The notes under the pieces: model-generated
What the model was told of the DNA's origin: nothing
Seen by the model: only the letters and a program-made list of their open reading frames with translations
Database searches by the model: none
Translations under genes and position numbers: made by a program
Part shown: positions 8,590-40,695 of the stretch, piece by piece
Numbering within the stretch: position 1 is the first letter of the stretch
Layout of the letters: each line of letters opens with the position of its first letter
Virus record (IMG/VR): IMGVR_UViG_3300020445_000003
Coordinates: 1 to 55,050 of that record
Source: a virus
DNA: 55,050 nucleotides
Strand: one strand, 5' to 3'

Positions 8590-11500
8590 TTAGTTGTATC
8601 CTGGAATATTCCAATTAGCTTGTGTTTTTAAGAAAGTAACAATTTCTAAAGACTCTTCGCTAATTGCAAGGTGTTGTTGTGGTGCATTATTATCTGAATT
8701 ACCATTAATATAATTATTTCTCATATCTATTGTAACTCCACCTCTATTACTTGCATTATAACTAGCAAGAGCATCTGCAATAATTTTCTCTAATTCTCCA
8801 GCAGGTAATTGATTATTAGTAACGTCAAAATACCTCAATCGAGTAAGAGAAGCAATTGAACCTTCTGTATACCTATCAAACTTATTATTATATAGTGCAA
8901 TATATCTTACTCTAGGACATCCACCGAAGTTAGGAATATCATCTTCTATACTATTATAATGGCAATAGAATATATCTAGATTACTCAAATTACTAAACTC
9001 AGATAATTTAGTAAATCCAGTGCTATCTCCTCTTCTATTTTGGTGAAGATATAGTCTTCTCAATGATGTTAAATCAGTAAAAGGTGGTATAGTTCCATAT
9101 AACTCATTATTATGTAGATATATGTAATCAAGTTGCCTATTGGAAGAGAATGTTGGTAGTGGTCCTGTAAATCTATTAGAGTTAAGATACAAATATCTTA
9201 TTTTTGTCATTGTAGTAAATATTGGTAATCTACCACTAATTTGATAATTAGAATTAATCAATAGATTCCTCATTTCAATTGTATCTAAAAATGCATTTTG
9301 ATGTATTCCATCTTCAATTGGATCACTTGTATTATTACCTTTAGCAAAAGTTGTGCTCGAAAAATAAAAAGTCTCTAATTTTGCACATTGACTAAAGGTT
9401 GAAGCACTTATTACATGGTTTTGATCTGCAGTGGCTACATTTGGATCTCCACCAGTTATACGAGTACCACGAATATCAACATATCTCAGGTTAGAATTAC
9501 TACTAAAAGAAGGAATAGGACCAGTTAGACGAGAAGCATAGCAACGTATTTCTTGCAAAGCACTACAACCTGCAAGTTTATATCCAGTATGTTTTCCATC
9601 AGTAGTACCAGAAGTATTCTGACTCGTAAAGAATGAAGTAGTAGTATAATTATATTGATTAAGAAAATGAGTTAAGTTTAATCTATTTGGTATAGTTGGC
9701 ATTTCTAGTCCTGTATGTCCCATATCGATGGTTTTGAGATTCATACTCTGTAATTCAAAAGTAGTGTCAGAACTAAGATAATAATTATTATAAATGTCAA
9801 GAGTTTCTAAATCTGGTAAATTCATAATAGAATATCTACCAGTACTAGTACTAACCCACGATCCATCTCTATAAACTTGTCTGGTGTCATCCTGTTTCTG
9901 TACAGCAACAGTAATAGTTACCACACTGCCTTTTTGATCAGCAGTAAAATTCTTATCTACCGTTACTATATTACCTTTTATTCTTATTACTCTTGTATTA
10001 GATGGTATTCCTGTGTCACTACCTGTATTTGAAAGTACAGCACCAGGTGCTAATTTATAAGTATTTCCACTACAATTATATATTACATCCTTACCATTTT
10101 CATAATTTCCAGTAAAAGTAAAAGTTGCAGTATCTGTAGTATTAGTACCAGTTACATCGATTCTACGAAAACTATTATTACGAGCATTGAAATTTATTAT
10201 AGTTTTAGGAACATTGGGTAATGTAGCAGTCGCACTATTACTAGAATTCCTATCATTATCATCAGGATAAAAACTTTGACCACCACCCCTATAAAAACTC
10301 AAAGTCGTTAGTTCAGGAAAACGATCTACAAATATATTTCTTTCTATAGATCCATTGAAAGTTCTACCCATATATATTTCTTTCATCGTAATTGGCATCT
10401 TATTCGTAATTTCCTGCGTCAATATCCTTTCTGATCTAGTTTCACTTAAATGAAGAGGATTAGTAGAAATATCTAAAACTTGTAATGCAGGAGTTATACT
10501 ATTAAAATTAGAAAAATTAGAAATATTATTATTATTTAACGAAAAAGAAGTTAATTGGCTAAATTTAGCAACAGGCAACTCTTCAATATTAGCAGATACA
10601 AGTCGAATTGATGTAATTTCATCCGCAGGATAATAAAGTTCAATAAATCTTTCTCTAGATCTAGAAGTTCGATATCTTGGTATACTTAAAGAATTTTTAT
10701 AATTAGAATAACTATTTCTATCATCAGTTCTAACTACTTTCCAACTAGGTGCTATGGTATTACCATCAGCAGAAATAGTATTAACAGTACAGTTAACATT
10801 ATCCAAACTTCTAAAAAATCCCCTAAATGCAAGTGGAATACCTTTCATTGCATAAAGATAGCGAACTTCTCCATCAAGATGAATTTTAATCTTAGAAGTA
10901 GGAATTTCAGATGGAAATTCAACTTGCGTTGGAGTTAATGTGGTCTGTAATCTTCTTCCACTAGCACCACTTGTACTAGTATAGGTAATTTCAGCAATTT
11001 CATCAGTCTCTTGTGGATCGGCTGTAGATGATGCCTGTTCTCCAAATCTCAATAAACCTCTATCTGCACCAGAATTATATTTTATTTGTATTCTTGAACC
11101 ATAAGATATTCTAGCTAATCTTTGAATATTAAGATTCTGACTATTTGCTCTACCATCAGAAGAACTCCAAGCACTAACTCGTGAAGTTGAGATGTCTGCA
11201 AGTGCAACACGAAAAGGATCATCACTAGTATCAGTAACCGTCATATTCAGCTCTACTGGTACACCAGTCATAGTACCCAACAATTTTATTGCATCACCAA
11301 CACTATAACCACTTCCTTTATTATTTACCGTTACATTAACATTAGCACTACCACCATCAACATCAACTACAACATCAAAAGTAGCCTTTCCATCTCCTGG
11401 TATTTCATCTTCTCTATCTAGTATATAGTAAACAGTGGTTACATCAGGGTCTATATCAAGTATAGCACCAGTAGCAGAAAAGAAACGTCCTTTATTCACA

Positions 11501-12219
11501 CGCACTGTTAAATCATTATAATCTCCATCAGGAGTACCACCATTATCAGTATCATCTATTTTTAATACTCTGCCAGGAACAGAGTATGAATCAGAATCAA
11601 TCTTTACTCTATGAGCATTTGTAAAAGTTATTGGATATGCCGTTTGCACACAAAAGTGATCAGTAGCACCACCAGGATTTGGATTAGTGGATTCATAATC
11701 GTGTACCAAGCCTGGTTGCACTGTTATACTAGCACTTGAATAATGACTAGCAGATGAAGTGACATATACAGAAACTTGTTCATATGCATAAACATTAGTA
11801 TAGGTTCCCACATTATAATCGCCAACAGGACCACCATGAGAAGCATTTATTGCTTCAATTCTTCCAGTAACACCACCTTTCAAATAACGATATCTAATTG
11901 CAGATCCACTTAAAACACCATTAACATCTAAGTCACCAAATAGCATTTTATCGATACCTGCCCTTATATCCAATAAACCTTCATACCTACCAGCATCACC
12001 ACTGTACCTATCTAATTTCTTCCATATAGGTGTATTGAGACTACTAAAACTACGCCAATCTGCAGCATCCACAGGAGTCTCTGCTTCTGAAGATTTATAT
12101 ATTACTGACAAATCTAATGCATTGACACCTAAATTTTTTAATGCTACATCTTTATCTAAGACATCAGCAAAATACTGATTGACATCTAAACCAAATATTT
12201 TAGGATTCTTAATTGACAT
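8590..12219 (-). CDS. Virion protein with C-terminal leucine-rich repeats (1209 aa)
   Basis: Residues 1-115 (NPKIFGLDVNQYFADVLDKD, then DLDVNGVLSGSAIRYRYLKGG) match an N-terminal anchor module I recognise from T4-like cyanophage structural proteins. Residues about 280-320 hold a GSGY-type module. From about 534 to 1172 the protein is a leucine-rich-repeat array, for example KIRYLYLNSNRFTGPLPTF, QLDYIYLHNNELYGTIPPF and SLRRLYLHQNRRG, with a pitch of about 23 residues and a plant-type L.LNSN.FTGPLP consensus. The array is interrupted by a beta insert at about 690-775. LRR surfaces bind proteins or glycans, so this is a strong candidate receptor-binding protein. It heads a short pair with the VCBS-like gene. 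Acquisition of the LRR part by transfer is likely but unproved. Confidence 0.85.
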   Translation of the reverse strand: MSIKNPKIFGLDVNQYFADVLDKDVALKNLGVNALDLSVIYKSSEAETPVDAADWRSFSSLNTPIWKKLDRYSGDAGRYEGLLDIRAGIDKMLFGDLDVNGVLSGSAIRYRYLKGGVTGRIEAINASHGGPVGDYNVGTYTNVYAYEQVSVYVTSSASHYSSASITVQPGLVHDYESTNPNPGGATDHFCVQTAYPITFTNAHRVKIDSDSYSVPGRVLKIDDTDNGGTPDGDYNDLTVRVNKGRFFSATGAILDIDPDVTTVYYILDREDEIPGDGKATFDVVVDVDGGSANVNVTVNNKGSGYSVGDAIKLLGTMTGVPVELNMTVTDTSDDPFRVALADISTSRVSAWSSSDGRANSQNLNIQRLARISYGSRIQIKYNSGADRGLLRFGEQASSTADPQETDEIAEITYTSTSGASGRRLQTTLTPTQVEFPSEIPTSKIKIHLDGEVRYLYAMKGIPLAFRGFFRSLDNVNCTVNTISADGNTIAPSWKVVRTDDRNSYSNYKNSLSIPRYRTSRSRERFIELYYPADEITSIRLVSANIEELPVAKFSQLTSFSLNNNNISNFSNFNSITPALQVLDISTNPLHLSETRSERILTQEITNKMPITMKEIYMGRTFNGSIERNIFVDRFPELTTLSFYRGGGQSFYPDDNDRNSSNSATATLPNVPKTIINFNARNNSFRRIDVTGTNTTDTATFTFTGNYENGKDVIYNCSGNTYKLAPGAVLSNTGSDTGIPSNTRVIRIKGNIVTVDKNFTADQKGSVVTITVAVQKQDDTRQVYRDGSWVSTSTGRYSIMNLPDLETLDIYNNYYLSSDTTFELQSMNLKTIDMGHTGLEMPTIPNRLNLTHFLNQYNYTTTSFFTSQNTSGTTDGKHTGYKLAGCSALQEIRCYASRLTGPIPSFSSNSNLRYVDIRGTRITGGDPNVATADQNHVISASTFSQCAKLETFYFSSTTFAKGNNTSDPIEDGIHQNAFLDTIEMRNLLINSNYQISGRLPIFTTMTKIRYLYLNSNRFTGPLPTFSSNRQLDYIYLHNNELYGTIPPFTDLTSLRRLYLHQNRRGDSTGFTKLSEFSNLSNLDIFYCHYNSIEDDIPNFGGCPRVRYIALYNNKFDRYTEGSIASLTRLRYFDVTNNQLPAGELEKIIADALASYNASNRGGVTIDMRNNYINGNSDNNAPQQHLAISEESLEIVTFLKTQANWNIPGYN

Positions 12220-12236
12220 ACTAATATCTTTTTATA

Positions 12237-12244
12237 TATTTATT
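12237..12244 (-). promoter_or_regulatory. Possible late promoter box AATAAATA
   Basis: The minus strand reads AATAAATA 18 bases upstream of the ATG at 12219, inside the 23-base gap after the 1429-aa gene and over its last codon. It fits NATAAATA. The region is very AT-rich, so chance occurrence is possible. Confidence 0.4.
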
Positions 12245-15200
12245 ATTGTTCTTTAAAGTTTAATGACATATTTACATTAGTTTCTGTATTAGTACCATCA
12301 ATTCTTTTAGCAATAAAAAATGTAGCCTCAACATTATTATTATCTGGTACTATTGCTTGTCTATCTGCACCAAAAACATCACTCAAATCGATAGTTTCAG
12401 ATTCATCTTGACCAATATACATATTATCTATAACTTTATATCCAGATCTCAATTTTGCTTCATTTTGATTTTCCAATTCACCAGCAGATAATCTTTCCAA
12501 TTCATCGAAATGAGTAGAAGCCTCATTTCTATTTGCATTTCCACTGGCATTAGTAATAGTTGCTCTACTATATTCAGTACCACTAATAGTTTCCTTCAAG
12601 AAGTATAATGGTGGTGTAATAGTTTTAGTTGTATCACCTATAGTTTCCTTAACAGTAATTCCATTAACTGCAGCCTTATCTCTCATTTTTATTATTAAAA
12701 ATAATGGAAATGGATTAAATTCATATAATCTTCTACTTGCAATTGTAGAAGGACTAGACGAACCATACTCTTTACCAGAATATGATCTAATTGGACGATA
12801 TGCAACTACAAGTTCAGAACCATCTACTCTCTCAATAAGTGTACTATTAGCACTACCATTAGGAAGAGGATCATTATTATTATTTTTAAATTCTACATAC
12901 CAATACGTTTTCTCACCACCTGTAGTTTGATCTGTCTCTTGATATGATTGTGGTTCACCAACATAATAAAATCCAGTTTGTGGTACGTTGATTTTCATAG
13001 GTTCACCATCAAGAGGATCAATTATAGTTAAAGTTTCCTGAAGTGCCAATTCACCTCCATCATAAGTAACATCAGGCCAAACACTGAATGGATCTTTCAT
13101 CACCAAAAATTGTCTTGTTCCTACTTGATCTGATGTTGGTTTACCATTAGCATCAATATCACCATTTCTAACGTATACTACTCCATCTTGAGGTCGTGGT
13201 TCTTCGGTTTCTATAGTTAATATTGAACAACGTCCTCCTCCAGGATTAGAAACAGTTGGTATTCTATAATCTATACCCATCCTAACTCTAGTATTTTGAA
13301 CTCCCCAAGCTTCAGTTGTCTCTTGACCATATGCATTTACAGCAGCATAGTTTTGAGAATGTTCTCCAAAGATTATTTCCCCTTCTGGTGGATTCGATAC
13401 ATTTCTACTAATACCTCCTACAGTTTCGGAAACTGTAGTTTGTAAAATATCATTCTTTGTCCAATTAGTAAATTCTGCTGCTGCATCATTACCAGTACTT
13501 GACAACTTAGTACCTCCTGATAAAACTGGTCTCCATTTAGACAATCCAATTAAAAAATCTGCAAAATGTGCATAATCATCACCATTTTGTGGATTTAAGA
13601 ACTGAATTTCTATTTTACTTCCAGTAAATTCATATGGAGATGCTGCGATTCCTGTAAGTTTACTTAATCTTATATTATGTGGGTATACATTTGCAGCATT
13701 ATTATTTCCGATAGGAATCTCAACATATTGACCAGTAACTTGATCAAGTACTGGATATAAAGAACCAGCTACTTTTCGTTCACCACTAAATTTAAATCCT
13801 GGAGAATAACCTGCTAAATTTGCACTATCGTATCTATCTTCAGTAATACCATTACCAAGATCAACAGTGGTCTTACCCTCCAATGATTTAATATAAGCGT
13901 TATTAATAGATGGTGCAATAATTTTTGCACCTATATCAGCAGCAGTAAAATAATCTGCATCAATACTATTAGATTCAGAATAGGTTTGTATTTGACTTGC
14001 CGAAGTAAATACAATTCCCTTTCTGTTATTACTAACTGCATCACCAGTAGAAGTAATTATTCTACCGTTAGTTCCAGTTTCTACTCCTGGTGTATAAACA
14101 TAACCAAATCCAGGACATCCTTTACAAACTACAGTACTTAATTTTGTCAATGCTCCTGCAGTAATATTCAATTGTGTAGGTATTATCATTTTCTTATTGA
14201 TTATTTCTGCTCCCATACTATTTGATATCACATCTTTTGGTCTAATAGCTAATAAAGACCTTTCACCTAAACCAGAAACTTTTGTTTCATTACTATCACC
14301 CGAATATATTGTTGTTGTTCCTTCATCTCCACCATCAATATAATATGATGCACCATACTTAGTAACTTGTTGTGGTTCTCTAAAAGTACTTGTATTTGTA
14401 ACATTAACTCTATAAATCATTCTAAAATAAGAATCTCGTAAACAAGGTTCCTTTAATTTATTTTCAATTACTAATGTATGAATTACAACCCATCTTGCAT
14501 CTCCTGATCCTACAGGAATGTAAGCATAGAATCTAGCACCAATAGCACCATACCAACCAAATTCAATCTTCCACATAGTAACTTTACTAGGTGAAATATT
14601 ATACTCAGAACGTCCTCTTCCATCCAAAGGATCTCCGTTAAAAAAGTCAGTTGATATTTCTGTTACATAATGGTACTCCTCGTCTCTAAATGGATCTCCA
14701 GATGCTTTAAGACCACTAATATCATTTTGAACCTGTACTTCTGCATCATCTTTAAGACCATTTTGTCTTAGAAGGTCTACTCCCAAAGGAATACTACTTC
14801 TACGTACAATATAAAGTTGTCCAGATCTAACTCTAAATGTATACTCATCAGTTGGGTTCGATATACCCCATTCATTAAAATATCCACTTCTAGATTCATC
14901 ACTAGCCTTTACACCAAATGTAAATCCACTAATTCTACCTGGTTGGTACCTAAAAACTCTTCTCGATTGCATTTGAGTAAAATGCCTTTCACCTGTACCA
15001 TATCCTGGTAGAGTAGTTGCAGCATATGATATTTCTCCTGTATCATAAAATGAAGTACCATGTTCTTTATTATGATTCTGAATAACACCTCTAATATCAA
15101 TAAAATTCATAGCTAAACCAGTTACTGGATTGGCTAATTCACCCTTTTCAAGTTTAACCCAAACGTCTGTCCAAGTATCAATTTGTGCAAATGAAATGGA

Positions 15201-16532
15201 CAATCCTGCAGTATATGATACATCACTTGGAGTTTTTGTTATATCAATTTTAGTAATAGTTTTATCTAAAAAATTATCTTTCCAATCTGAAGGATAATGA
15301 GAATAATCAGAATGACTATACAAGTCATAAAGATCATTACCTAATTGAATAAAGTTTTTATAGGTATTAAATTTATCTTCATCATATACTCCCAATCTAG
15401 CCCATAATGGTCCAAAAGGATAAGTATAAGGTACAGGATAAGAACCTATCTGAACACCAGATTCCTCTGTTATCTCTGAAATTTTAGTGCTATATCTTGA
15501 CCCATAAACTTTATTTTGACGATCTTGCCATTCCGATACACTATACCCAGTTGAACTCCAACTAAAAGTTTCAAACTCATCTGGATCTAATCCATAAGAA
15601 GATACATTGGAAAATAAACTAAGTTGAGTTTCTGCACGATTAACACCAAGTAATGTTGTGCTAACTTCACTGGTTTCTTTAAATTGTTCTTCTACTTTCC
15701 AAGTAGCATTAGATTTTCTAGTTGCTGCTGTTGGTCTTCTTATATCAATAAAAGTATTATGTCTAATACCAAATGCTGGTGGTTGAATATTTAACTCATT
15801 ACTTAAAACTACTCTATAATTATGACTTACTTCTGTTATTTGTGTTCCATTTGGAATATGATTTTCATTTATTTTAGAATATTGAGTAGAAGCTGCTCCT
15901 ATTGCAGCATTACTACTATCACTACTTAAACTATCACTAAATTTAAGTCCTAATCCATAAATTCCTTTACCTGAATCTAAGTTATCAAAATATAATTTAT
16001 TTCTAGGTCCAGGTTGTTCTTCTTTAGTTCTTATTACAGGCCATTTAGCACATAATGAAGAATCTCTTTGTGTATAAGTTTCCGAAGACGTATCTTGAGT
16101 CTCAGTAAGACCTGTTGCTGCATCTCCATCATACCAAGTAACATCACTATCACTAGTATCTAATGTTCCTACTGTAGGTTTAACAGTTACTAAAGTACCA
16201 TTCCTTTGTTTTACAATCGGTCTATTTGTAGTTCCATAAAGTGCAGTAACTACTTCATAATTACCACATAAAGCATTTAAACCACTTGCAAGTTGACTAA
16301 AATTTGTAACTGGATACTTATCATCTTTTTCCAAAAAAGCAACAGAAGTTGCCTTTGCCATCGTTGCATCTGCAATAAAATAAGTATCAACTTTAGTAAC
16401 TAGTCTATTACCAAACTCATCAGTCAAATATTGTCCACTTGCTTTATTATAAAGAAACTGCTCATCATTAGGGACAACAGAAACTGGTCGTTTGTCATCC
16501 CCAAACTTAATATCCTTACCGCCACTTGCCAT
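12243..16532 (-). CDS. Large virion structural protein, paralogue of its neighbour (1429 aa)
   Basis: It starts MASGGKDIKFGDDKRPVSVV. Several blocks match the next upstream gene: LLGVNRAETQLSLFSNVSSY; FRYQPGRISGFTFGVKAS near residue 524; VTMWKIEFGWYGAIGARFYA; DARWVVIH; KYGASYYIDGGDEGTTTIYS near 724. This copy has about 385 extra N-terminal residues before the FRYQPGR block. The WKIEFGWYGA..A.FYAY block looks like a conserved beta-sandwich core. No enzyme motifs were seen. The two genes lie in one transcript, three bases apart. Large proteins of this kind are structural in T4-like cyanophages, probably baseplate-peripheral or fibre-connecting; the exact role is not known. Confidence 0.75.
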   Translation of the reverse strand: MASGGKDIKFGDDKRPVSVVPNDEQFLYNKASGQYLTDEFGNRLVTKVDTYFIADATMAKATSVAFLEKDDKYPVTNFSQLASGLNALCGNYEVVTALYGTTNRPIVKQRNGTLVTVKPTVGTLDTSDSDVTWYDGDAATGLTETQDTSSETYTQRDSSLCAKWPVIRTKEEQPGPRNKLYFDNLDSGKGIYGLGLKFSDSLSSDSSNAAIGAASTQYSKINENHIPNGTQITEVSHNYRVVLSNELNIQPPAFGIRHNTFIDIRRPTAATRKSNATWKVEEQFKETSEVSTTLLGVNRAETQLSLFSNVSSYGLDPDEFETFSWSSTGYSVSEWQDRQNKVYGSRYSTKISEITEESGVQIGSYPVPYTYPFGPLWARLGVYDEDKFNTYKNFIQLGNDLYDLYSHSDYSHYPSDWKDNFLDKTITKIDITKTPSDVSYTAGLSISFAQIDTWTDVWVKLEKGELANPVTGLAMNFIDIRGVIQNHNKEHGTSFYDTGEISYAATTLPGYGTGERHFTQMQSRRVFRYQPGRISGFTFGVKASDESRSGYFNEWGISNPTDEYTFRVRSGQLYIVRRSSIPLGVDLLRQNGLKDDAEVQVQNDISGLKASGDPFRDEEYHYVTEISTDFFNGDPLDGRGRSEYNISPSKVTMWKIEFGWYGAIGARFYAYIPVGSGDARWVVIHTLVIENKLKEPCLRDSYFRMIYRVNVTNTSTFREPQQVTKYGASYYIDGGDEGTTTIYSGDSNETKVSGLGERSLLAIRPKDVISNSMGAEIINKKMIIPTQLNITAGALTKLSTVVCKGCPGFGYVYTPGVETGTNGRIITSTGDAVSNNRKGIVFTSASQIQTYSESNSIDADYFTAADIGAKIIAPSINNAYIKSLEGKTTVDLGNGITEDRYDSANLAGYSPGFKFSGERKVAGSLYPVLDQVTGQYVEIPIGNNNAANVYPHNIRLSKLTGIAASPYEFTGSKIEIQFLNPQNGDDYAHFADFLIGLSKWRPVLSGGTKLSSTGNDAAAEFTNWTKNDILQTTVSETVGGISRNVSNPPEGEIIFGEHSQNYAAVNAYGQETTEAWGVQNTRVRMGIDYRIPTVSNPGGGRCSILTIETEEPRPQDGVVYVRNGDIDANGKPTSDQVGTRQFLVMKDPFSVWPDVTYDGGELALQETLTIIDPLDGEPMKINVPQTGFYYVGEPQSYQETDQTTGGEKTYWYVEFKNNNNDPLPNGSANSTLIERVDGSELVVAYRPIRSYSGKEYGSSSPSTIASRRLYEFNPFPLFLIIKMRDKAAVNGITVKETIGDTTKTITPPLYFLKETISGTEYSRATITNASGNANRNEASTHFDELERLSAGELENQNEAKLRSGYKVIDNMYIGQDESETIDLSDVFGADRQAIVPDNNNVEATFFIAKRIDGTNTETNVNMSLNFKEQ

Positions 16533-29077: not shown

Positions 29078-32000
29078 TTATTTAATAAGATAAAAATCTT
29101 TTGTTGAATCAATTTCTCTTAATTTTATCCAGGTAGAAGGAATAACTGCTGTTTTACGGACATAACACTGCCCAAGCAAACCAATAGTATCCCATTCTTT
29201 TCTATCTTCTCTAGGAGTATAAGTTTGAGATTCATCCCAATCAGGATTACGTTTTACACTAACTTTAGGTCTAACATTACCCATATAAGGATAACTATAC
29301 AGTTGATTACCATCAGCATCTTTAACTAATTCAAGTTCAAGTCTACCCCATTCATCACGGAGATTAGCACCTTGCCATTTCATACTTCCACTGTTACCAA
29401 CAAATGCAGCAGTACCAGAAACAACACCTATAACAGTATCACCATCTTCGGCAATCTTAATTTTACCTGTTAGACCATCTATAGCAACAGTATGTCCTAT
29501 ACGATCTTCACCTGAAGGATTGCCATCAGACCACTCAAACATTTCAGCAAAGTCATAATTCTGGTTAGAGTTCCAATTATTGTCAGCACCTGCATTACCT
29601 GTATCAGTACGAAAAACAAATTGCTTCTGTTCTGTAGTTCCACCACTCTTCCTCATTGTAAAGTAATCATCCACACTTAAATATGAATTACCATCGGTTC
29701 TATGTAACTGACCGTCAGCATTATAACTATTCCATACATCTGCTGCAGTAACACCCTGACCTTGAGTTCCAACATTAACGTCAAATCTAATACCGTTTGA
29801 ACCAGCTTGGAAAGCAGTCTGCTGTTGAGTATTTGTAGTCTTAGTAAAACAATTAATAACATCTGCCCAACCACCTGCTGCATAATGTTGTAATTTCATA
29901 GTACCATCAGCTTTAGCTAACCATTGCCACTTATCCTCATTATCATCTCCATTGTCTGCAAACATCTTAAAACCAGCAGATGCATTTTGGGTTCCTTTTA
30001 TAGTTAATCCAGATCCATTAATTAGATGCAATCCAATATTACCTCCATCATTACCAATAAATGCATGTTTAGTAGCACTCCAACTAGAAGATCCAGATGA
30101 AGTACCAGCTTGTGTTCCCAACCAGAATTCTATGTCACCTTTTTCATTCTGATTTGTATTTCCATTTAAAATTCCTCTAAATGCAATGGCAGCACCAGGA
30201 TTCCAATGATTTGCTTTACCCCAACCATTTTGTTCTTTCCACATACCTGCTCCAATGGAAACTAAACCACTAACAGCGTCTACTCCAACACAACCATATA
30301 ATTCTTTAGTTGCACCATTACCACTGTCATTTTTGTACATAACAATATCAGGGCCAGCAGTACTACTCCAACCACTTCCTGGCATATCTGAACCATGATT
30401 GACACCAAGACCAATCTTACCATCTCCTGAAATATAAAACCTACTCGTGTCTTGATTATTTCCATTCATCGGTTGCTTACGAGTAAAGAAATCAAAATCA
30501 CCTGACCATTGATCAGATTTAGCTGTGAATACAAGTGTTCCACCATCTTGTTTGATAGTGCCTTCTCTATTATCGAAAGAAGTATCTAATAATGTAAATC
30601 CAGGACTTCCACTATTAATTACAGTAATATCACTAGTAAATGAAGAAATCCCAGTAACATTTAAAGTACCAGCTATTGATGTATTACCAGTTGCATCTGC
30701 TACAGTGAACTTATCAGTATCACATTTAATACCACCATTGGCCCTTAACTCACCACTTACAGTTGTAGTGCCAATAAGAGATGATTGTCCTATTACAGCA
30801 AGACCACCAGCTATACCCAAATCACCACTTGCAGTTGTATTACCTGTAAAAGTTTGAGTCCCAGTAACTGCTAAATTGCCACTTAAAGTAAGATCAGCAC
30901 CAGTACATCCAGCAGCTAAGTCATCTGCAGTACCAACAGAGATACCAGTTAAATTTGAACCATTTCCATAAAAATGAGATGCAGTACATATACCAGTAGA
31001 TTTAATATTACCAGTATTAGCATCAAATCTTACATAGTTTGAAGAAAGAAATTCTGGAGAATCTGCAGATTGATCTGCACCTACCGTCATACCATCTCTA
31101 TTAATGGTAGTAGAAGAGAAATGACTTAATCCACTACCACCTAAACCACCAGATCCACCAGTATAATTTACACTATAAAGTCTAGCCGCATTAGGATCAT
31201 ATTTTAAATGATCATCATTAGTATCAATATAAAGATCTTGATTTCCAGTGCTATTTTGAGAACAAAATACAACTTGATTCCAACCAGCATTTTTTTCTTG
31301 AATATTTACTTTAGTGGCAGCAGAAGCAGTGATACCAGTTAGATTAGAACCATCTATTGCAGGTAAAGTACCAGTTATATTTGCAGCAGGAATATTTGTT
31401 AAATTAGTAGCACTTATTGCAGGTAAAGCACCTGAAAGTTTTGATGCAGTAAGTGTAGATATTCTTGCATCAGCAACTGTACCAGTTAGTTGACCAGCAG
31501 GTAAATTAGTTAAGTTTGCTCCTGAACCAGTTATAGTACCATTAAGATATAAATTATTAAACTTTAATCCACTACTTCCTATATCATAAGTATCACCAGT
31601 TCCAGGTAATATATCATCATCAACAACAATACCAGTACCATCAATAGCAAAAATTTGATTTGAATTATAATTTAATTTAATCGCACCATTATTTGTTGAT
31701 GTAAGATCAAGTGCTCCAGTGGAGCTTACTGTAGAAGCAGTTATATCCCCTGAAAAAGTCGCACTCGTACCTGTTAACGCACCAGTTAAAGTTCCACCTG
31801 CGAGAGGTAATTTAGTGGCGATACTATTTGTTACTGTCGTTGAGAAATTAGCATCATCTCCCAATGCAGCAGCTAATTCATTGAGTGTGTTTAATGCATC
31901 TGGTGAACTATCAACCAAGTTTGATATTGCTGTGTCTGTATAAGATGTCGTTGCTATTTTTGTACTATTGTTTCCTGCTGATTGGGTCGTAGCTGTGTCT

Positions 32001-32419
32001 AATCTTGCTGCTGCTATTGTTCCTGTTAATTGACCTGCTGGAAGTGAAGTTAAACTTGCACCTGACCCGCTAAATGTTGTTGCTACTAAGGCTCCACTAC
32101 CATCACCACTAGCGACAACTAAATTTCCACTTGCCGCTTTTACTGTCCAAGAACGAGTACCTGTTTGATCGAAACCGAGTCTTGATCCGTTTTTTATAGA
32201 TAAACCAGAATCTCCAGTGACATTAACATTAGACTGAGTAAGGAATCCTATTCCATCTACTGTCCCTGTAACTGTGATATTACCACCAACAGAAAGATTA
32301 CCACTCGCAGTAGTTGTTGCAGCAGTTATATTAAGATTTCCACCACTAGGACTCTCGATAGTAGGAGTTCCATCACCATCTAATTTTATTTTCTTTACAC
32401 CAAAACTCTTTTCTGCCAT
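29078..32419 (-). CDS. Tail fibre with C-terminal autoproteolytic G2/IMC domain (1113 aa)
   Basis: The N-terminal two thirds are fibre repeats: ITVTGTVDGIGFLTQS, repeated AGQLTGT..A.AR.DT motifs, and NITGTLPAIDGSNLTGI. Residues about 954-1113 (YDFAEMFEWSDGNP, EDRIGHTVAIDG, VIGVVSGTAAFVGNSG, LRDEWGR) match the Peptidase_G2 / intramolecular chaperone auto-processing domain found at fibre C-termini. In that family it helps trimer folding and then cleaves itself off. A late box (CATAAATA) lies 17 bases before the ATG. Downstream is the 29012 hairpin element. Likely a host-binding fibre. The domain reading is confident; the actual cleavage is inferred. Confidence 0.85.
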   Translation of the reverse strand: MAEKSFGVKKIKLDGDGTPTIESPSGGNLNITAATTTASGNLSVGGNITVTGTVDGIGFLTQSNVNVTGDSGLSIKNGSRLGFDQTGTRSWTVKAASGNLVVASGDGSGALVATTFSGSGASLTSLPAGQLTGTIAAARLDTATTQSAGNNSTKIATTSYTDTAISNLVDSSPDALNTLNELAAALGDDANFSTTVTNSIATKLPLAGGTLTGALTGTSATFSGDITASTVSSTGALDLTSTNNGAIKLNYNSNQIFAIDGTGIVVDDDILPGTGDTYDIGSSGLKFNNLYLNGTITGSGANLTNLPAGQLTGTVADARISTLTASKLSGALPAISATNLTNIPAANITGTLPAIDGSNLTGITASAATKVNIQEKNAGWNQVVFCSQNSTGNQDLYIDTNDDHLKYDPNAARLYSVNYTGGSGGLGGSGLSHFSSTTINRDGMTVGADQSADSPEFLSSNYVRFDANTGNIKSTGICTASHFYGNGSNLTGISVGTADDLAAGCTGADLTLSGNLAVTGTQTFTGNTTASGDLGIAGGLAVIGQSSLIGTTTVSGELRANGGIKCDTDKFTVADATGNTSIAGTLNVTGISSFTSDITVINSGSPGFTLLDTSFDNREGTIKQDGGTLVFTAKSDQWSGDFDFFTRKQPMNGNNQDTSRFYISGDGKIGLGVNHGSDMPGSGWSSTAGPDIVMYKNDSGNGATKELYGCVGVDAVSGLVSIGAGMWKEQNGWGKANHWNPGAAIAFRGILNGNTNQNEKGDIEFWLGTQAGTSSGSSSWSATKHAFIGNDGGNIGLHLINGSGLTIKGTQNASAGFKMFADNGDDNEDKWQWLAKADGTMKLQHYAAGGWADVINCFTKTTNTQQQTAFQAGSNGIRFDVNVGTQGQGVTAADVWNSYNADGQLHRTDGNSYLSVDDYFTMRKSGGTTEQKQFVFRTDTGNAGADNNWNSNQNYDFAEMFEWSDGNPSGEDRIGHTVAIDGLTGKIKIAEDGDTVIGVVSGTAAFVGNSGSMKWQGANLRDEWGRLELELVKDADGNQLYSYPYMGNVRPKVSVKRNPDWDESQTYTPREDRKEWDTIGLLGQCYVRKTAVIPSTWIKLREIDSTKDFYLIK

Positions 32420-32435
32420 GATATTTCTTTTTAAT

Positions 32436-32443
32436 TATTTATG
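32436..32443 (-). promoter_or_regulatory. Possible late promoter box CATAAATA
   Basis: The minus strand reads CATAAATA 17 bases upstream of the fibre ATG at 32419, overlapping the stop of the subtilase gene. It agrees with NATAAATA. Confidence 0.5.
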
Positions 32444-35105
32444 TTGTAATATTTAAAGTTCCAGTAACATTTAAAGTTCCAGCAGATGTATTACCATCCA
32501 AAGGAGCATCATATAAAACTTTTGGTGATCCGCCATGTAAGGAATATTGATCGTCAAAATCACTATCATTAGCAGTTGTTCCCTCATTACCAACATAAAA
32601 CTGAGAACTTGATTGTGCAGAGACATGGTTACTTACCCAATTTTTTAATTCTTTCCAACCCCACGACCTTCTATGTTCCAATTTAGTTGCCAATAAACCA
32701 CAAGCAGTTGGTGACGCAAAACTAGATCCACTATAACCCTGATTAAAATTCAATGTGGAAGTTAAATTCGTTCCATTTACTGTAATTGTATATGTACTAT
32801 CATTTCTATAATATGTTTTAGTTATTGCCCATGAATTTGGCCTTGCAACATTGGATTTGTCGGCATTACTATTAGGAGCATCTCTCAATGTAGCAGTTAA
32901 AGTATTATGTCCAGGTGCATAGAAATCTACTGCATTTCCACTATAAGAATAATAAATTTTACTCTCTTGAGTATTTGACTTTCCAATATCAGAAGTAGCA
33001 GCCGCTGCAAATGATGGATTAACTATTTCACCATAAGTAGGTGAAGAAGAATCTGTATCTTCAAATTCTCCAGCACTACATGGAAAACTTAATCGATTAA
33101 TAAACGCAGATGCATCAGATGCTTGACTATCTAAAGCAGTAGTTGCGGTTACATTATTAGCATTCCCAAAATAATTATTATAATCGGGATGTGTTGATTT
33201 GACACACTTTTGATTATTATTTCCTGCTGCTGCAACAACAATCACTCCTTCATCAATAGCAGATTTTGCTGCAACTTGTCTTGAATGTGTTGATTTAAAC
33301 CAAGGTTCTATATGTGGATTATAATAATTATTTTTCAAATATTTTGGTGATGTAATCTTATTATCTGCATCATATACAATTGAACCTATCTCACCACTAC
33401 CTGCAGTTCCATTACCAGGAGTCCTCCAAAAATAATGTGTTGCATTAGTAGATGTCAAATTATACCCCGATCCCCAACTATGATTTGTAATTGTAGGATT
33501 CTTATTACCATGATTAGAATTATTTGGTTTATACTTATGAAATATTTTTAGCATCTTAAATGCATCTTCATTACTTGGAACAATTAAATCATCCTCTAAA
33601 TGTCCATGAACCCATTTATTTGCATTATATGCCATCCCAAGAGTTTTTCCAAATATCAAAGAAGAAACAGCAGTACCATGAGAATTAAATTGTTGTGAAG
33701 GATACGCAGAATGTGATCCTTGAATAAATGGTCTGGTATATCCATATGATGTAAATGCCATAGAAGGTACACTAATATATCCAAAAAAATCATCACCACC
33801 AGACAAAAACCTAGCAGATCTAACACTACCAATTCCTTGCCACCAATTCAATGCAGCTGTTTGTGTAGGAACTCTAGTTCCATCCCAACGAATTTCTGTT
33901 CTATTCGTTTGATCAGCATTAAAAAACTCTGGATCAAGGTAATATGGAGCATCCAAATATAAAGATAATACTCCACATTTTCCATTGGGATCTAATGCAT
34001 TCCCACCAATATAATCATCTGGTTCTCCAACACCTGTTTTCACAAATTCAACATGACCAAACCAAGTGCCACTATCAAAAACAATTATATCAACATCCTT
34101 TCCTGTAGATCTTTTAGGAGTATTTGATGTAATAGTTGTAGATTTAGAAGATCCACTCCAAGGATCATTTTTTTGAGTACATCGTAATAAAGTATGTCCC
34201 GATTTACTTAATGTTGAAGAAGGTGAATTAAATGTTCCTATGCATACTGTAGTTCCATTTGAATAACCACCATAAGCTGTTCCATAATAATTATAACCTG
34301 TTGTACGAAAATTATTCCCATCCAAATCAGTATTACTCCAAGCAACACCTGTGGCACTTGATAAATTAGAATTATTAAATCTAACTTCTCCAGAACTTGG
34401 AGCAGAAGTAATAGAAGTACTACTATTATCATATCTAAAACGAAACTTCCTATCATCTTTACTTGTCCTCTCAAAAAGGAATGTTATAATAGTCCCATCA
34501 GGAATAGATGTAGGAAAATTAGCTGAATATGTCTGAGTGACTTCATGTGCAGTTGTAAATGATGCAGCAGCATATCCAGTACCAGTAGTACCATTAATCA
34601 AACCAATGTTTATATACCAGGTATCTTGATTAGTAAAAGTTAATTCTCTATTATGATTTACTGGAGACCCATACCTATCTGTTACACCATAATTTAATAA
34701 TAACTCTTTCTCAAAACAATCTCCACCATATGTAGCTCTATAATAACTCTCATCTATATTGACATCCAAAACTTTTGGATGTTTTTTAATATCTTCTACC
34801 TCTGCATCTGTTAATAGATAATATCCTATACGATCAATTAACTCTGATTCATCGCAACACTCACAAGAATCAGATGGAATATTATCTTCCAATGTTCCAT
34901 CCTTTATCAATACTTCATGAATAGACTTCCAGTCTTCACCATTAGAGCAAACTACCATATATCTCTTTTTACCAGTTCCTTCTGGTACCGAAGGTGCTCC
35001 AGATTTCTTTAAAAATTCTCGTCTTCTGTTTATAATTTCTTGTGGATTGGTAAGAGTAGATATACCAACTTTATAATCTTTAAACTCTTGTTCAGTAATA
35101 CTCAT
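32439..35105 (-). CDS. Subtilisin-like serine protease (S8) with I9-like propeptide (888 aa)
   Basis: Residues about 48-121 (KRYMVVCSNGEDWKSIHEVL, then LLTDAEVEDIKKHPKVLDVN) look like an I9 inhibitor propeptide. The catalytic set is visible: D344 in IIVFDSGTW, H476 in NSHGTAVSSLI, oxyanion N629 in VVAAAGNN, and S795 in GSSFASPTACG. Inserts of about 130 residues between D and H are longer than in plain subtilisins, with CGVLSLYLDAPYYLDPEFF in the gap. Four Cys cluster near 81-84 (CECC). The C-terminus ends in a fibre-like GTLNVTGTLNITT. There is no signal peptide, as expected for a virion-borne enzyme. It ends 19 bases before the G2 fibre and starts one base after the 1778-aa fibre. It may process fibres or host surface proteins. 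The enzyme class is sure; its target is not known. Confidence 0.9.
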   Translation of the reverse strand: MSITEQEFKDYKVGISTLTNPQEIINRRREFLKKSGAPSVPEGTGKKRYMVVCSNGEDWKSIHEVLIKDGTLEDNIPSDSCECCDESELIDRIGYYLLTDAEVEDIKKHPKVLDVNIDESYYRATYGGDCFEKELLLNYGVTDRYGSPVNHNRELTFTNQDTWYINIGLINGTTGTGYAAASFTTAHEVTQTYSANFPTSIPDGTIITFLFERTSKDDRKFRFRYDNSSTSITSAPSSGEVRFNNSNLSSATGVAWSNTDLDGNNFRTTGYNYYGTAYGGYSNGTTVCIGTFNSPSSTLSKSGHTLLRCTQKNDPWSGSSKSTTITSNTPKRSTGKDVDIIVFDSGTWFGHVEFVKTGVGEPDDYIGGNALDPNGKCGVLSLYLDAPYYLDPEFFNADQTNRTEIRWDGTRVPTQTAALNWWQGIGSVRSARFLSGGDDFFGYISVPSMAFTSYGYTRPFIQGSHSAYPSQQFNSHGTAVSSLIFGKTLGMAYNANKWVHGHLEDDLIVPSNEDAFKMLKIFHKYKPNNSNHGNKNPTITNHSWGSGYNLTSTNATHYFWRTPGNGTAGSGEIGSIVYDADNKITSPKYLKNNYYNPHIEPWFKSTHSRQVAAKSAIDEGVIVVAAAGNNNQKCVKSTHPDYNNYFGNANNVTATTALDSQASDASAFINRLSFPCSAGEFEDTDSSSPTYGEIVNPSFAAAATSDIGKSNTQESKIYYSYSGNAVDFYAPGHNTLTATLRDAPNSNADKSNVARPNSWAITKTYYRNDSTYTITVNGTNLTSTLNFNQGYSGSSFASPTACGLLATKLEHRRSWGWKELKNWVSNHVSAQSSSQFYVGNEGTTANDSDFDDQYSLHGGSPKVLYDAPLDGNTSAGTLNVTGTLNITT

Positions 35106-35106
35106 T

Positions 35107-38100
35107 TTACACTACCACCTGCTTAATAAATTTGACAGTTGTTGTACCACTATTACCTGGAGTGAATTTCACCAATACATTACTACCACTAGTAGAAGTA
35201 CTAAATGTACCAAGAACAGATGCACTATACATTACAGCATACTCGGTATGATGATGATTAGTACCATCACACATAACCAAAAGTTTCTGTGCTTGCATTC
35301 CTGTACTATGACTGATGTACATAGTATACTCTAAGACATTAAAAGAATTCAAAGCAACTGTAGAAACAGTCTGAGCAGTAGTACCACCACTAAGAGTCAC
35401 AGTTGTCGTAACAGCAGCATCTGCAGTAACAGTACCAGAACTATTTGTAAGACCAGTACTGAATGTAAGTGGTGTTTGATATGTGTGCGTATGAGATGTA
35501 GTAGAATATGAATTAGTATCTACAGTACCATTTGCCTTCAAGAATTGACTTGATGTTCCACCGCTTTTAACTAAAGTGGTTGCAGTAAGTGATCCTCTAA
35601 TTACTCCATCATTTGAACTGTTAACTACATTTGAGTTTGTGATAATCGCATTACCCATATAACCATGAGCAGTACACTGATAATATAAAACATTTGGTGT
35701 ATCATCACTTATTGTAATCTCAGTATAAGTATTCTGGAAATTTACATCTGTGGTATAATTTGTAGTTTTATCTGCTTCAAGATAAAATTTTAATGGATGA
35801 CTTCCTGTATTGTCATTTGTAAATCTATAAGTTCTACCTGGTGTTAATGTAAGTATTGGTGCAAATACTCCATCAATTTTATATCCACTACCAGATCCAG
35901 TTCCGTTATATCTGTGAGTGCTATCCTTTGTAGCTACTGTGACAGCAAAGGTGGTTGTACTACCATGAGGTGCTTGAAGGTAATCAAAACCAGTGAGAGC
36001 ATCTGCAGTAACATCTGCTACCGTAATATCTGGTGTTCCAGTTAATCCTTGAGCGTTTGTAGCACTTGCAACACTACCAGATGAAGTTACATAAACACTG
36101 CCATCTACAGAACCATCTGCCTTTAAGAATTGTGATGAGGTTCCACCACTCTTTACGAATGATCCTGCAGTTATATCTAATGCAGGTGTAATACTATCTA
36201 CTGTTATAACAATATCACTACCACCACCAATAGATGAACCAGTGAAAGTTAATGTTTCATTTACAGCAAAATTTCTACCACTAGCAGTTTTTGTAATAGT
36301 TACTGTGTTTGCTGCATCATCAGCAATGGTTATAGTAAAACCAGCACCAGTACCTGATACATTACCACTTAAATTAGTAAATGTATATGTACCAGGAGTT
36401 CTAGTTTGATTACTAGCATCATCTGACCATGTAACAATAGACGCAATATTTTTAATAGATCCATTACTAAGGAGAAGACCATCAGATTCGATACGAAGTC
36501 TTTCAGTAGATGATGAACCAGTTTTAAATATAAATGCTCCGTTTGTTCCAAAAGCATTAAAGTTTAATACATCAGATGCAACCCAAATATCTGTATTTTG
36601 ATCATTAGGACTATTAGTATCTGATAATTGAAGAGCACCTGCTGATGTGATGCGAAGTCTTTCTGTTGTGTTTGTTCTAAATGCCATGTAATTGTCTACA
36701 TGGTTATATTGAATTGATCCTGTTAAGTTAGAATTTGCAGCGTCATTAAAAATAAGCCAACCATCAGCATCAGCAGCAGAAAATACTGTTATTCCATTAT
36801 GACCAACTCCAGAACCAACTACTAAATTATCAGCAGCAGCGTTCATCGAACCACCTGTAGTATTTCCGATCAATACACGTCCACTTGAGTCGATGCGAAG
36901 TCTTTCTTCAGCTACTGAAGAATCATCAGGTACTGTAAAAAATGTTAATCTACCAGCATGATCAGAACTATCTCCTCCTTGATCCCAAGCTAAGTCTGCC
37001 TCTCCTTTTATAACTGCGCCAGGATCTCCTGTAGTATCTCCACAGAAATTAATTTGACCTAATATATTATCTACTGCTGGAGCTGTTCTTTTCCATAAAT
37101 TTAATTGTGCTTCTCCTGTAGCACTACCAATATTACCAACTATATTAAAGTTGGCGTTATTAGTTGCTCCTGATGTAGTTGCAGCATTGTGACCAGCCAC
37201 CACTACTCCAGTTGATGTGATGCGAACTATTTCTGTACCACTAGACATCAAAGCAAGTGCATGTGCAGTATCTGTTCCAAAGATCATCGATGTGTCTGCA
37301 TCTTTATAAATCAGTTTTGCCTGTACAGCACCACCAGATCTCTGCCAAGTTTGAATATCTACATTATTTGATGCAGAATAATTACCTGTTACTAAAAGAG
37401 CATTTTGACCAGCAGCACCACCCTTACACTCAACCTCACCATCTGCGTGGATGCGAAGTCTTTCAGAACCTCCTGTTGAGAATTTAAGTGGATTTGATGT
37501 AATAGTTGCTACTGTTACAGTAATATCAGCACCACCACCAATAGAAGAACCAGGTATAGTTAATGTTTCATTCACTGCATAATGTGTACCACCAGAAGTT
37601 ACTGTAATCGCAGGAACTGTACTAGTAGCAATAACTACAGAGAAATTAGCACCCGTACCTGATACACTACCAGCAAGTTTAGATACAGCATATGTGCCAT
37701 TAGTTCTACTATTATCCGTAGCAGCATTACTTGTAATAGTGTCAATAGAATCAACACCATGAATGGATCCATTAACTGCAATACCAGTATCGGTAACACG
37801 AAGACTTTCTTTATTTGTACTTGCAAACCTTAATGTCTCTCCTCTGAATCCTATGTCCGTAAGAGATCCATTATCTTTAAAAGCAACTAGAGCAGGTACA
37901 TTTCCAACTTCACTCTGAGAACCATTAAATGCTACATTTTTATTTGTGGATATATGTGCTACTATTCTACCATTACCAGCAATAGTAGCATTACTACTTC
38001 CAACGCAAATTGAATCTGAAAGGGAGTATGTAAATGTTTTATCATTTACATTCAAACCAATATCTATATTATGACCTGCTATAAAACCTATAAGTTGATC

Positions 38101-40666: not shown

Positions 40667-40695
40667 AGTATACCAAATCCAACTTTAGTTGTCAA
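40667..40695 (-). promoter_or_regulatory. Sigma-70 type promoter for the 63-aa gene
   Basis: On the minus strand, TTGACA at 40690-40695 is followed by 17 bases and TATACT at 40667-40672. The -35 is perfect and the -10 has one mismatch. The start of transcription should be near 40660, about 15 bases from the ATG. The -35 overlaps the stop codon of the 272-aa gene. Confidence 0.8.

Follow-up and report, generated by a model that had tools for sequence, protein, structure and literature searches.

The stretch of DNA analysed here, the window (55,050 bases of an IMG/VR virus record, IMGVR_UViG_3300020445_000003), carries a gene, P0001 (32439–35105, minus strand; 888 amino acids (aa), ATG start), which by its sequence is an intact protease gene of the subtilisin type (S8). 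It lies directly behind the fibre gene P0003, and the new element is the near-fixed partnership, seen in sequence comparisons, of this S8 family with one fibre C-terminal domain (FCD). We hypothesized that P0001 encodes a zymogen protease that is attached at the fibre end, occupies a genomic slot of the gp38 type and acts on a protein of the host surface, a reading to which we give a probability of about 50%. The active-site residues, the propeptide-type fold, the purifying selection and the FCD/S8 pairing rest on sequence, structure prediction and gene order; the mounting, activation, activity and substrate of the S8 protein we infer. The known enzymes of phage tails that act on the host surface mostly degrade sugars or the cell wall, and little is known of how cyanophages recognize marine picocyanobacteria. 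A zymogen protease built into a fibre, if real, would approach the host by another route. Since the FCD/S8 partnership is near-fixed, function becomes testable, with the pair as a direct experimental handle.

The S8 family itself is already annotated in public cyanophages (P-SSM2 and S-SSM7; the GenBank notes of both homologues read 'contains PF00082 domain'), and an S8 peptidase, T4-GC518, is mentioned for P-HM1 and P-HM2 in Sullivan 2010 (PMC3037559). No description of a fibre-linked subtilisin in cyanophages was found in titles and abstract openings, a scope that excluded most subscription journals.

Catalytic domain and propeptide of P0001

P0001 matched PF00082 over residues 465–829 with 47.4 bits, above the curated cut-off of 21.8, and phrog_9158, a family of unknown function, at 7.9e-65. 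A sequence-only reading of this DNA had placed D344, H476, N629 and S795 in S8 motifs, and all four were found in the order Asp-His-Ser plus the oxyanion Asn, within VDIIVFDSG, SHGTAVSS, AAAGNNNQ and GYSGSSFASP. By sequence and alignment, their codons lie at 34074–34076 (catalytic Asp344), 33678–33680 (catalytic His476), 33219–33221 (oxyanion Asn629) and 32721–32723 (catalytic Ser795), all on the minus strand. The structural model that the same reading had proposed as a check had a predicted subtilisin-like alpha/beta fold (54 sequences in the alignment; mean predicted local distance difference test score (pLDDT) 76.8; predicted template modelling score 0.72). The propeptide and catalytic parts were mostly confident, and the insert at residues 157–298 was unreliable. 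With VIA, 272 of the 276 residues of aqualysin I (4dzt) could be aligned (Z 29.4, root-mean-square deviation (rmsd) 2.3 Å, 25% identity), pairing model residues 142–868 with chain residues 1–276. Because the aqualysin I chain starts at model residue 142, the mature enzyme would start at about 142, with the insert just behind that start. The S8 catalytic domain is assigned to residues 300–868 (32502–34208, minus strand). P0001 shares fold and catalytic residues with aqualysin I and proteinase K, which are free secreted bacterial or fungal enzymes; unlike P0001, they lack a fibre partner, the insert and a C-terminal tag.

A tblastn search with P0001 returned 42 phage records, all of the marine cyanophage type and none aligning over 80% of the protein; a shorter subtype query (S-WAM2) added five. 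Profile scanning of viral contigs with the S8 protein gave at least 501 relatives, of which the best 80 were used. Among 92 aligned rows, D was present in 90, H in 90, N in 91 and S in 90, the misses being a wrong open reading frame (ORF; L018), an ORF started too late (L033) and a real deletion (L047). In 65 full-length S8 proteins from a search with the FCD, in which S8 was not used as a query, D, H and N were present in all 65 and S in 64; this count omits six of the 71 S8 proteins because they did not exceed 550 aa, and the missing serine (L231) is a gap on a contig that ends early. These residues were kept even where the catalytic domain is no more than 26% identical to that of P0001. PF00082 matched 54 of 54 members of the structure alignment at E ≤ 1; the alignment held 54 of 76 proteins, under 90% identity, omitting fused or truncated ones (L007, L018, L019, L022, L023, L033 and L041) and the loci of the annotated-phage collection. 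The ratio of nonsynonymous to synonymous substitution rates (dN/dS) had a median of 0.196 across 121 overlapping, non-independent pairs, all at 78–98.5% identity, and this low value, consistent with purifying selection in the relatives, argues that the S8 gene is not a chance pattern. An S8 fold that is catalytically silent and serves for binding only would fit the missing serine segment of L047. We consider it very improbable, as the quartet is invariant in 64 of the 65 full-length proteins, with a gap in the remaining one, and persists at the lowest identities. In three loci (L018, L024 and L031), two S8-type genes lay close together by eye, with a fibre gene between them in L018.

The segment N-terminal to the enzyme, which the sequence-only reading had likened to an I9 propeptide (residues 48–121), kept its position and predicted fold, but not its profile assignment. 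The propeptide spans residues 47–122 (34740–34967, minus strand) and has an inhibitor-I9-like fold according to the model and the top VIA rows; it is conserved in relatives. Residues 40–124 predicted alone (pLDDT 80.6) gave the order strand-helix-strand-strand-helix-strand. All 19 top VIA rows were subtilase propeptides or pro-forms, led by 2z57_B (Z 8.2, rmsd 1.9, 63 aligned residues), with 1scj_B at Z 7.8 and 1spb_P at Z 7.3. As Z 8.2 is at the edge of what VIA calls common, the weight lies in the run of like rows; Foldseek alone gave a best E of 0.024. The Pfam I9 profile (PF05922) had no match in P0001 at E ≤ 1 and matched 4 of 54 relatives at that threshold (best 0.064), so the segment is called I9-like in fold and is not assigned to PF05922. 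The aligned propeptide ends near residue 124, so it is probably cut off, by self-cleavage, near residues 122–128.

Partnership of the fibre end with the protease

The window encodes a baseplate hub, a tail lysozyme, a tail tube, a tail tube cap, a head closure protein and several long fibres; the hub gene shares 66.9% identity with that of Synechococcus phage S-SCSM2R. These features mark the window as a fragment of a T4-like phage of the cyanophage type. On the minus strand, the fibre gene P0003 (40443–35107; 1778 aa; phrog_30742 tail fibre at 1.8e-40), the S8 gene (35105–32439) and the fibre gene P0002 (32419–29078; 1113 aa; tail-fibre PHROGs) follow head to tail. The gaps are 1 base upstream and 19 bases downstream of the S8 gene, in agreement with the 1–19 base spacing read earlier between the two fibre genes. 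The wider description of this locus, namely a tail-fibre block that holds a subtilisin and its inhibitor-type propeptide, has the support of sequence, predicted fold and the conserved order of genes, but not of an I9 profile match. A head-maturation protease was rejected as an explanation, as the PF00082 gene sits in the fibre block and not in the head block.

Genes upstream of S8 often share a similar C-terminal end. A hidden Markov model (HMM) of that end matched P0003 at residues 1690–1777 (2e-22) and no other ORF of the window. Domain searches and gene-order comparison place this S8-linked partner domain of P0003, the FCD of about 99 aa, at 35110–35406 (minus strand). In annotated phages, the P0003 end had 16 matches, of which 12 lie immediately before S8 when coordinates are compared (S-SCSM2R, S-SSM7 twice, S-SSM6a, AG-345-L05, AG-345-F15, S-SCSM1 twice, Sf-CH5, Sf-CH8 and S-T4 twice). 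A search of viral contigs with the FCD alone yielded 226 loci, of which the best 80 were kept and 75 had a readable next ORF. That ORF encoded a propeptide and S8 in 71 of the 75 loci (gap −4 to +178 bases), and 20 of 24 clusters at 70% identity had S8 behind the FCD. The 71 of 75 is biased upwards, since neighbours of S8 supplied 10 of the 12 sequences in the query alignment and the loci retained were those most like the window's domain. Among the four exceptions, two had S8 one gene further on (L219 and L236), one had a fibre gene with a weak match to the S74 chaperone (L217), and one (L208:3495-4898) had a 467-aa protein with a glycine-rich domain (PF21722, 2.7e-16). The latter begins MSSLNITGNIDF, much like the C-terminal tags of S8 proteins. 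The FCD match ended 3–27 bases before the end of the stop codon in all 80 loci, which makes the FCD the very end of the fibre. That it is nearly always followed by S8 suggests that the phage mounts the protease on the fibre.

Of the annotated phages read, 9 of 11 had S8 or its immediate neighbour annotated as a tail, fibre, baseplate or virion protein, and the other two (S-SCSM2R and S-T4) had the fibre end domain upstream of S8. The downstream fibre P0002 begins with an FGVK-type segment (32210–32419, minus strand), recognized by comparing the genes that flank S8. Among the 60 listed of 335 matching annotated-phage records, eight aligned from residue 1 of this segment, and all eight carry S8. 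Such conserved gene ends on both sides of S8 would also fit a virion enzyme placed on the baseplate or a side fibre instead of the fibre end, as a loose accessory protease whose neighbours form no more than a recombination cassette. S8 is, moreover, fused into another structural protein (L041) and adjoins baseplate or tail-pin genes in Sf-FR1 and S-CREM1. A loose cassette would not, however, require so specific a pairing with a single fibre end domain, and we regard this placement as unlikely.

In T-even and S16-like phages, the gp38 adhesin gene, which does not encode a protease, is located directly behind gp37. The S8 gene likewise lies directly behind a fibre gene, L208 has a glycine-rich protein in its place, and the arrangement typical of gp38, a gene directly behind a fibre with an end domain specific to it, was found in 71 of 75 loci of the biased sample. 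Neither Pfam nor PHROGs gave a gp38 or adhesin-family match in P0001, so the protein may work like gp38 and is not classed as gp38. More tentatively, marine T4-like phages may possess an exchangeable, FCD-marked fibre-tip slot, usually occupied by a self-inhibited subtilisin and more rarely by a glycine-rich adhesin. Proteolysis at the host surface would then replace plain receptor binding or join it, and the propeptide would hold the enzyme in check up to completion of the particle. The subtilisin occupant would often carry additional lectin, immunoglobulin (Ig), esterase or other domains.

Virion evidence and the proposed role of the protease

What comes nearest to direct evidence for the S8 protein in a particle concerns a distant relative, gp144 of S-SCSM1 (PQC12_gp144), which comprises S8 and two lectin stretches and is annotated as 'baseplate wedge subunit (virion protein)'. 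Like P0001, it has a propeptide and S8, and its gene is directly behind that of a virion protein ending in the FCD; it was also the top viral fold match. It differs in its length (1411 aa), its two C-terminal Laminin_G_3 stretches and its virion-protein tag. In the S-SCSM1 record, 47 genes are tagged as virion proteins or named so in their product. The S-SCSM1 publication reports 45 proteins detected by mass spectrometry and names an NMN (nicotinamide mononucleotide) adenylyltransferase and a carboxypeptidase among them (PMC9602691); both are tagged in the record. The tagged set also includes a translational repressor, which homology would not call a virion protein. Together with the 47 tags against 45 detected proteins, this indicates that the tags probably reflect detection by mass spectrometry.

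We propose that the S8 protein would be made as a zymogen late in infection, with the propeptide folding the enzyme and covering the active site, so that the protease would be silent in the infected cell. It may then be placed on the end of the upstream-encoded fibre via the C-terminal domain of about 99 aa, perhaps helped by a strand-like C-terminal tag, and the propeptide would be removed near residues 122–128. On the virion, the active enzyme and its accessory domain could cut or bind a host-surface protein and aid adsorption or entry. The sequence-only reading had offered fibre maturation and opening of the host surface layer as possible roles; of these, opening of the host surface is favoured. 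Surface-type fusions, namely to lectin domains (S-SCSM1, L201, L246 and L265) and to Ig plus esterase-like domains (S-TIM54), speak for this role, as does the virion-protein tag of the S-SCSM1 homologue.

Fibre maturation is the main rival, although we consider it rather unlikely. Here S8 would cut its partner fibre in the cell or on the assembling tail, possibly in or close to the C-terminal domain, without itself facing the host. The link of a fibre end domain to a single protease family would suit an enzyme and its substrate, tight or overlapping genes fit co-production, and P0001 had no evident secretion signal by eye. Set against this are the S-SCSM1 protein, which has 1411 aa, includes lectin stretches and bears a virion-protein tag; the self-cleavage domain that the downstream fibre P0002 carries itself; and the fibres of S-SM2 and S-SRM01, which share this end domain, with S8 absent from the stretches read. 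A protease released or acting inside the cell late in infection, digesting host protein or receptors on debris and thereby aiding release and spread, is considerably less probable. A zymogen would suit timed activation and a signal peptide would be unnecessary if lysis freed the enzyme, but the lectin and structural-protein fusions and the S-SCSM1 tag argue for a part of the particle.

Several observations weigh against the fibre-end, host-facing reading. The virion evidence is an indirect tag on S-SCSM1 gp144, a distant relative of this phage's protein, whose S8 part shares about 22–37% identity with P0001 in separate pieces. The fibre-domain HMM matched only 44 of 71 genes upstream of S8, 32 of which had served to build it, and the FCD/S8 count carries the upward bias given above. 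In S-SRM01 and S-SM2, other genes follow the FCD, with no S8 in the 10-kb stretches read. The gene pairing may reflect a recombination cassette rather than contact, P0001 lacks an adhesin match, and L047 has lost the serine segment. Finally, S8 was found in 47 cyanophage records, compared with 462 records named as cyanophages that contain the hub gene of the window. A virus-wide housekeeping role was rejected, as most cyanophage records with the hub gene had no detectable S8.

Added domains, relatives and other features of the window

Between propeptide and enzyme, P0001 has an accessory insert (residues 157–298; 34212–34637, minus strand; pLDDT under 50). No relative of it was found in phages or viral contigs, and the best Pfam match was a weak one to ILEI (0.048). 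The propeptide-to-enzyme spacing was 62–101 residues in most relatives, compared with 213 in P0001, 356 in L041 and 456 in S-TIM54. At the other end, a beta-like tag (residues 875–888, AGTLNVTGTLNITT; 32442–32483, minus strand) resembles the tails of relatives. Its pattern, which was composed after inspection of the tails, occurred in 43 of 52 non-redundant tails versus 64 of 2843 internal 20-mers and 14.6% of shuffled tails.

The T4-GC 292 proteins (S-SSM7 SSSM7_232 and P-SSM2 PSSM2_297) likewise comprise a propeptide, S8 and a short C-terminal tail and are encoded between tail or fibre genes. They lack the insert of about 160 aa that P0001 has after its propeptide, and they are annotated as hypothetical. 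Their tblastn identity to P0001 over part of the protein was 33.1% (S-SSM7) and 23.7% (P-SSM2).

Laminin_G_3 lectin domains were located C-terminal to the S8 enzyme in S-SCSM1, L201, L246 and L265. In S-TIM54, an esterase-like part is added before the enzyme (BD-FAE 7.2e-13, COesterase 3.7e-9), and Ig domains lie behind it. This 2140-aa virion structural protein (L007:12013-18435) consists of a propeptide, an esterase-like part, S8, Ig domains and then a cupredoxin-like stretch, which resembles part of P0003 of the window. The L003 insert was also weakly cupredoxin-like. In L041:9995-16231, a frame of 2078 aa comprises a propeptide, the N-terminal part of a homologue of the window structural gene 12243–16532, S8 and the rest of the homologue (48% identity to the product of the window gene over residues 264–1429). 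The fusion was confined to this one contig: none of 14 other loci had S8 inside their homologues of this gene, and in L194 a weak S8-like match lay elsewhere in the locus, outside the homologue. Six members (L046, L055, L057, L058, L070 and L076) have 224–253 residues in place of about 40 at the position of P0001 residues 727–790; in the five scanned (all but L057), Pfam gave nothing in common with other members except S8 and a few weak I9 matches.

Scanning of bacterial and archaeal genomes for S8 relatives gave seven loci, all on contigs of marine metagenome-assembled genomes (MAGs). L101–L103 also hold P0003-like fibre stretches and L105 a stretch like another structural gene of the window; L104, L106 and L107 had no match to the window's structural genes. 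The phage-structural stretches make it likely that phage contigs were binned into MAGs, and a host origin is not favoured. In GTDB, the contigs of L101–L103 and L105 are labelled Gammaproteobacteria.

The C-terminal self-cleavage domain of P0002 is a Peptidase_G2 domain (29141–29641, minus strand; PF11962 at 1.7e-33), which tblastn did not find in the collected loci of the relatives. Self-cleaving fibre domains of this kind (phrog_4775, pre-neck appendage) cut themselves and are not S8. The strongest sigma-70-like site of the block, TTGACA-17-TATACT (40667–40695, minus strand), is a consensus match only and lies upstream of a 63-aa ORF followed by the fibre/S8/fibre run; the total count of such sites in the block was not above that in shuffles. 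T4-type late promoter words (TATAAATA and CTAAATA) occurred in the window below chance. Elsewhere in the structural block, a 1209-aa protein (8590–12219, minus strand) appeared leucine-rich-repeat-like by eye (LQVLDISTNPLHL and similar).

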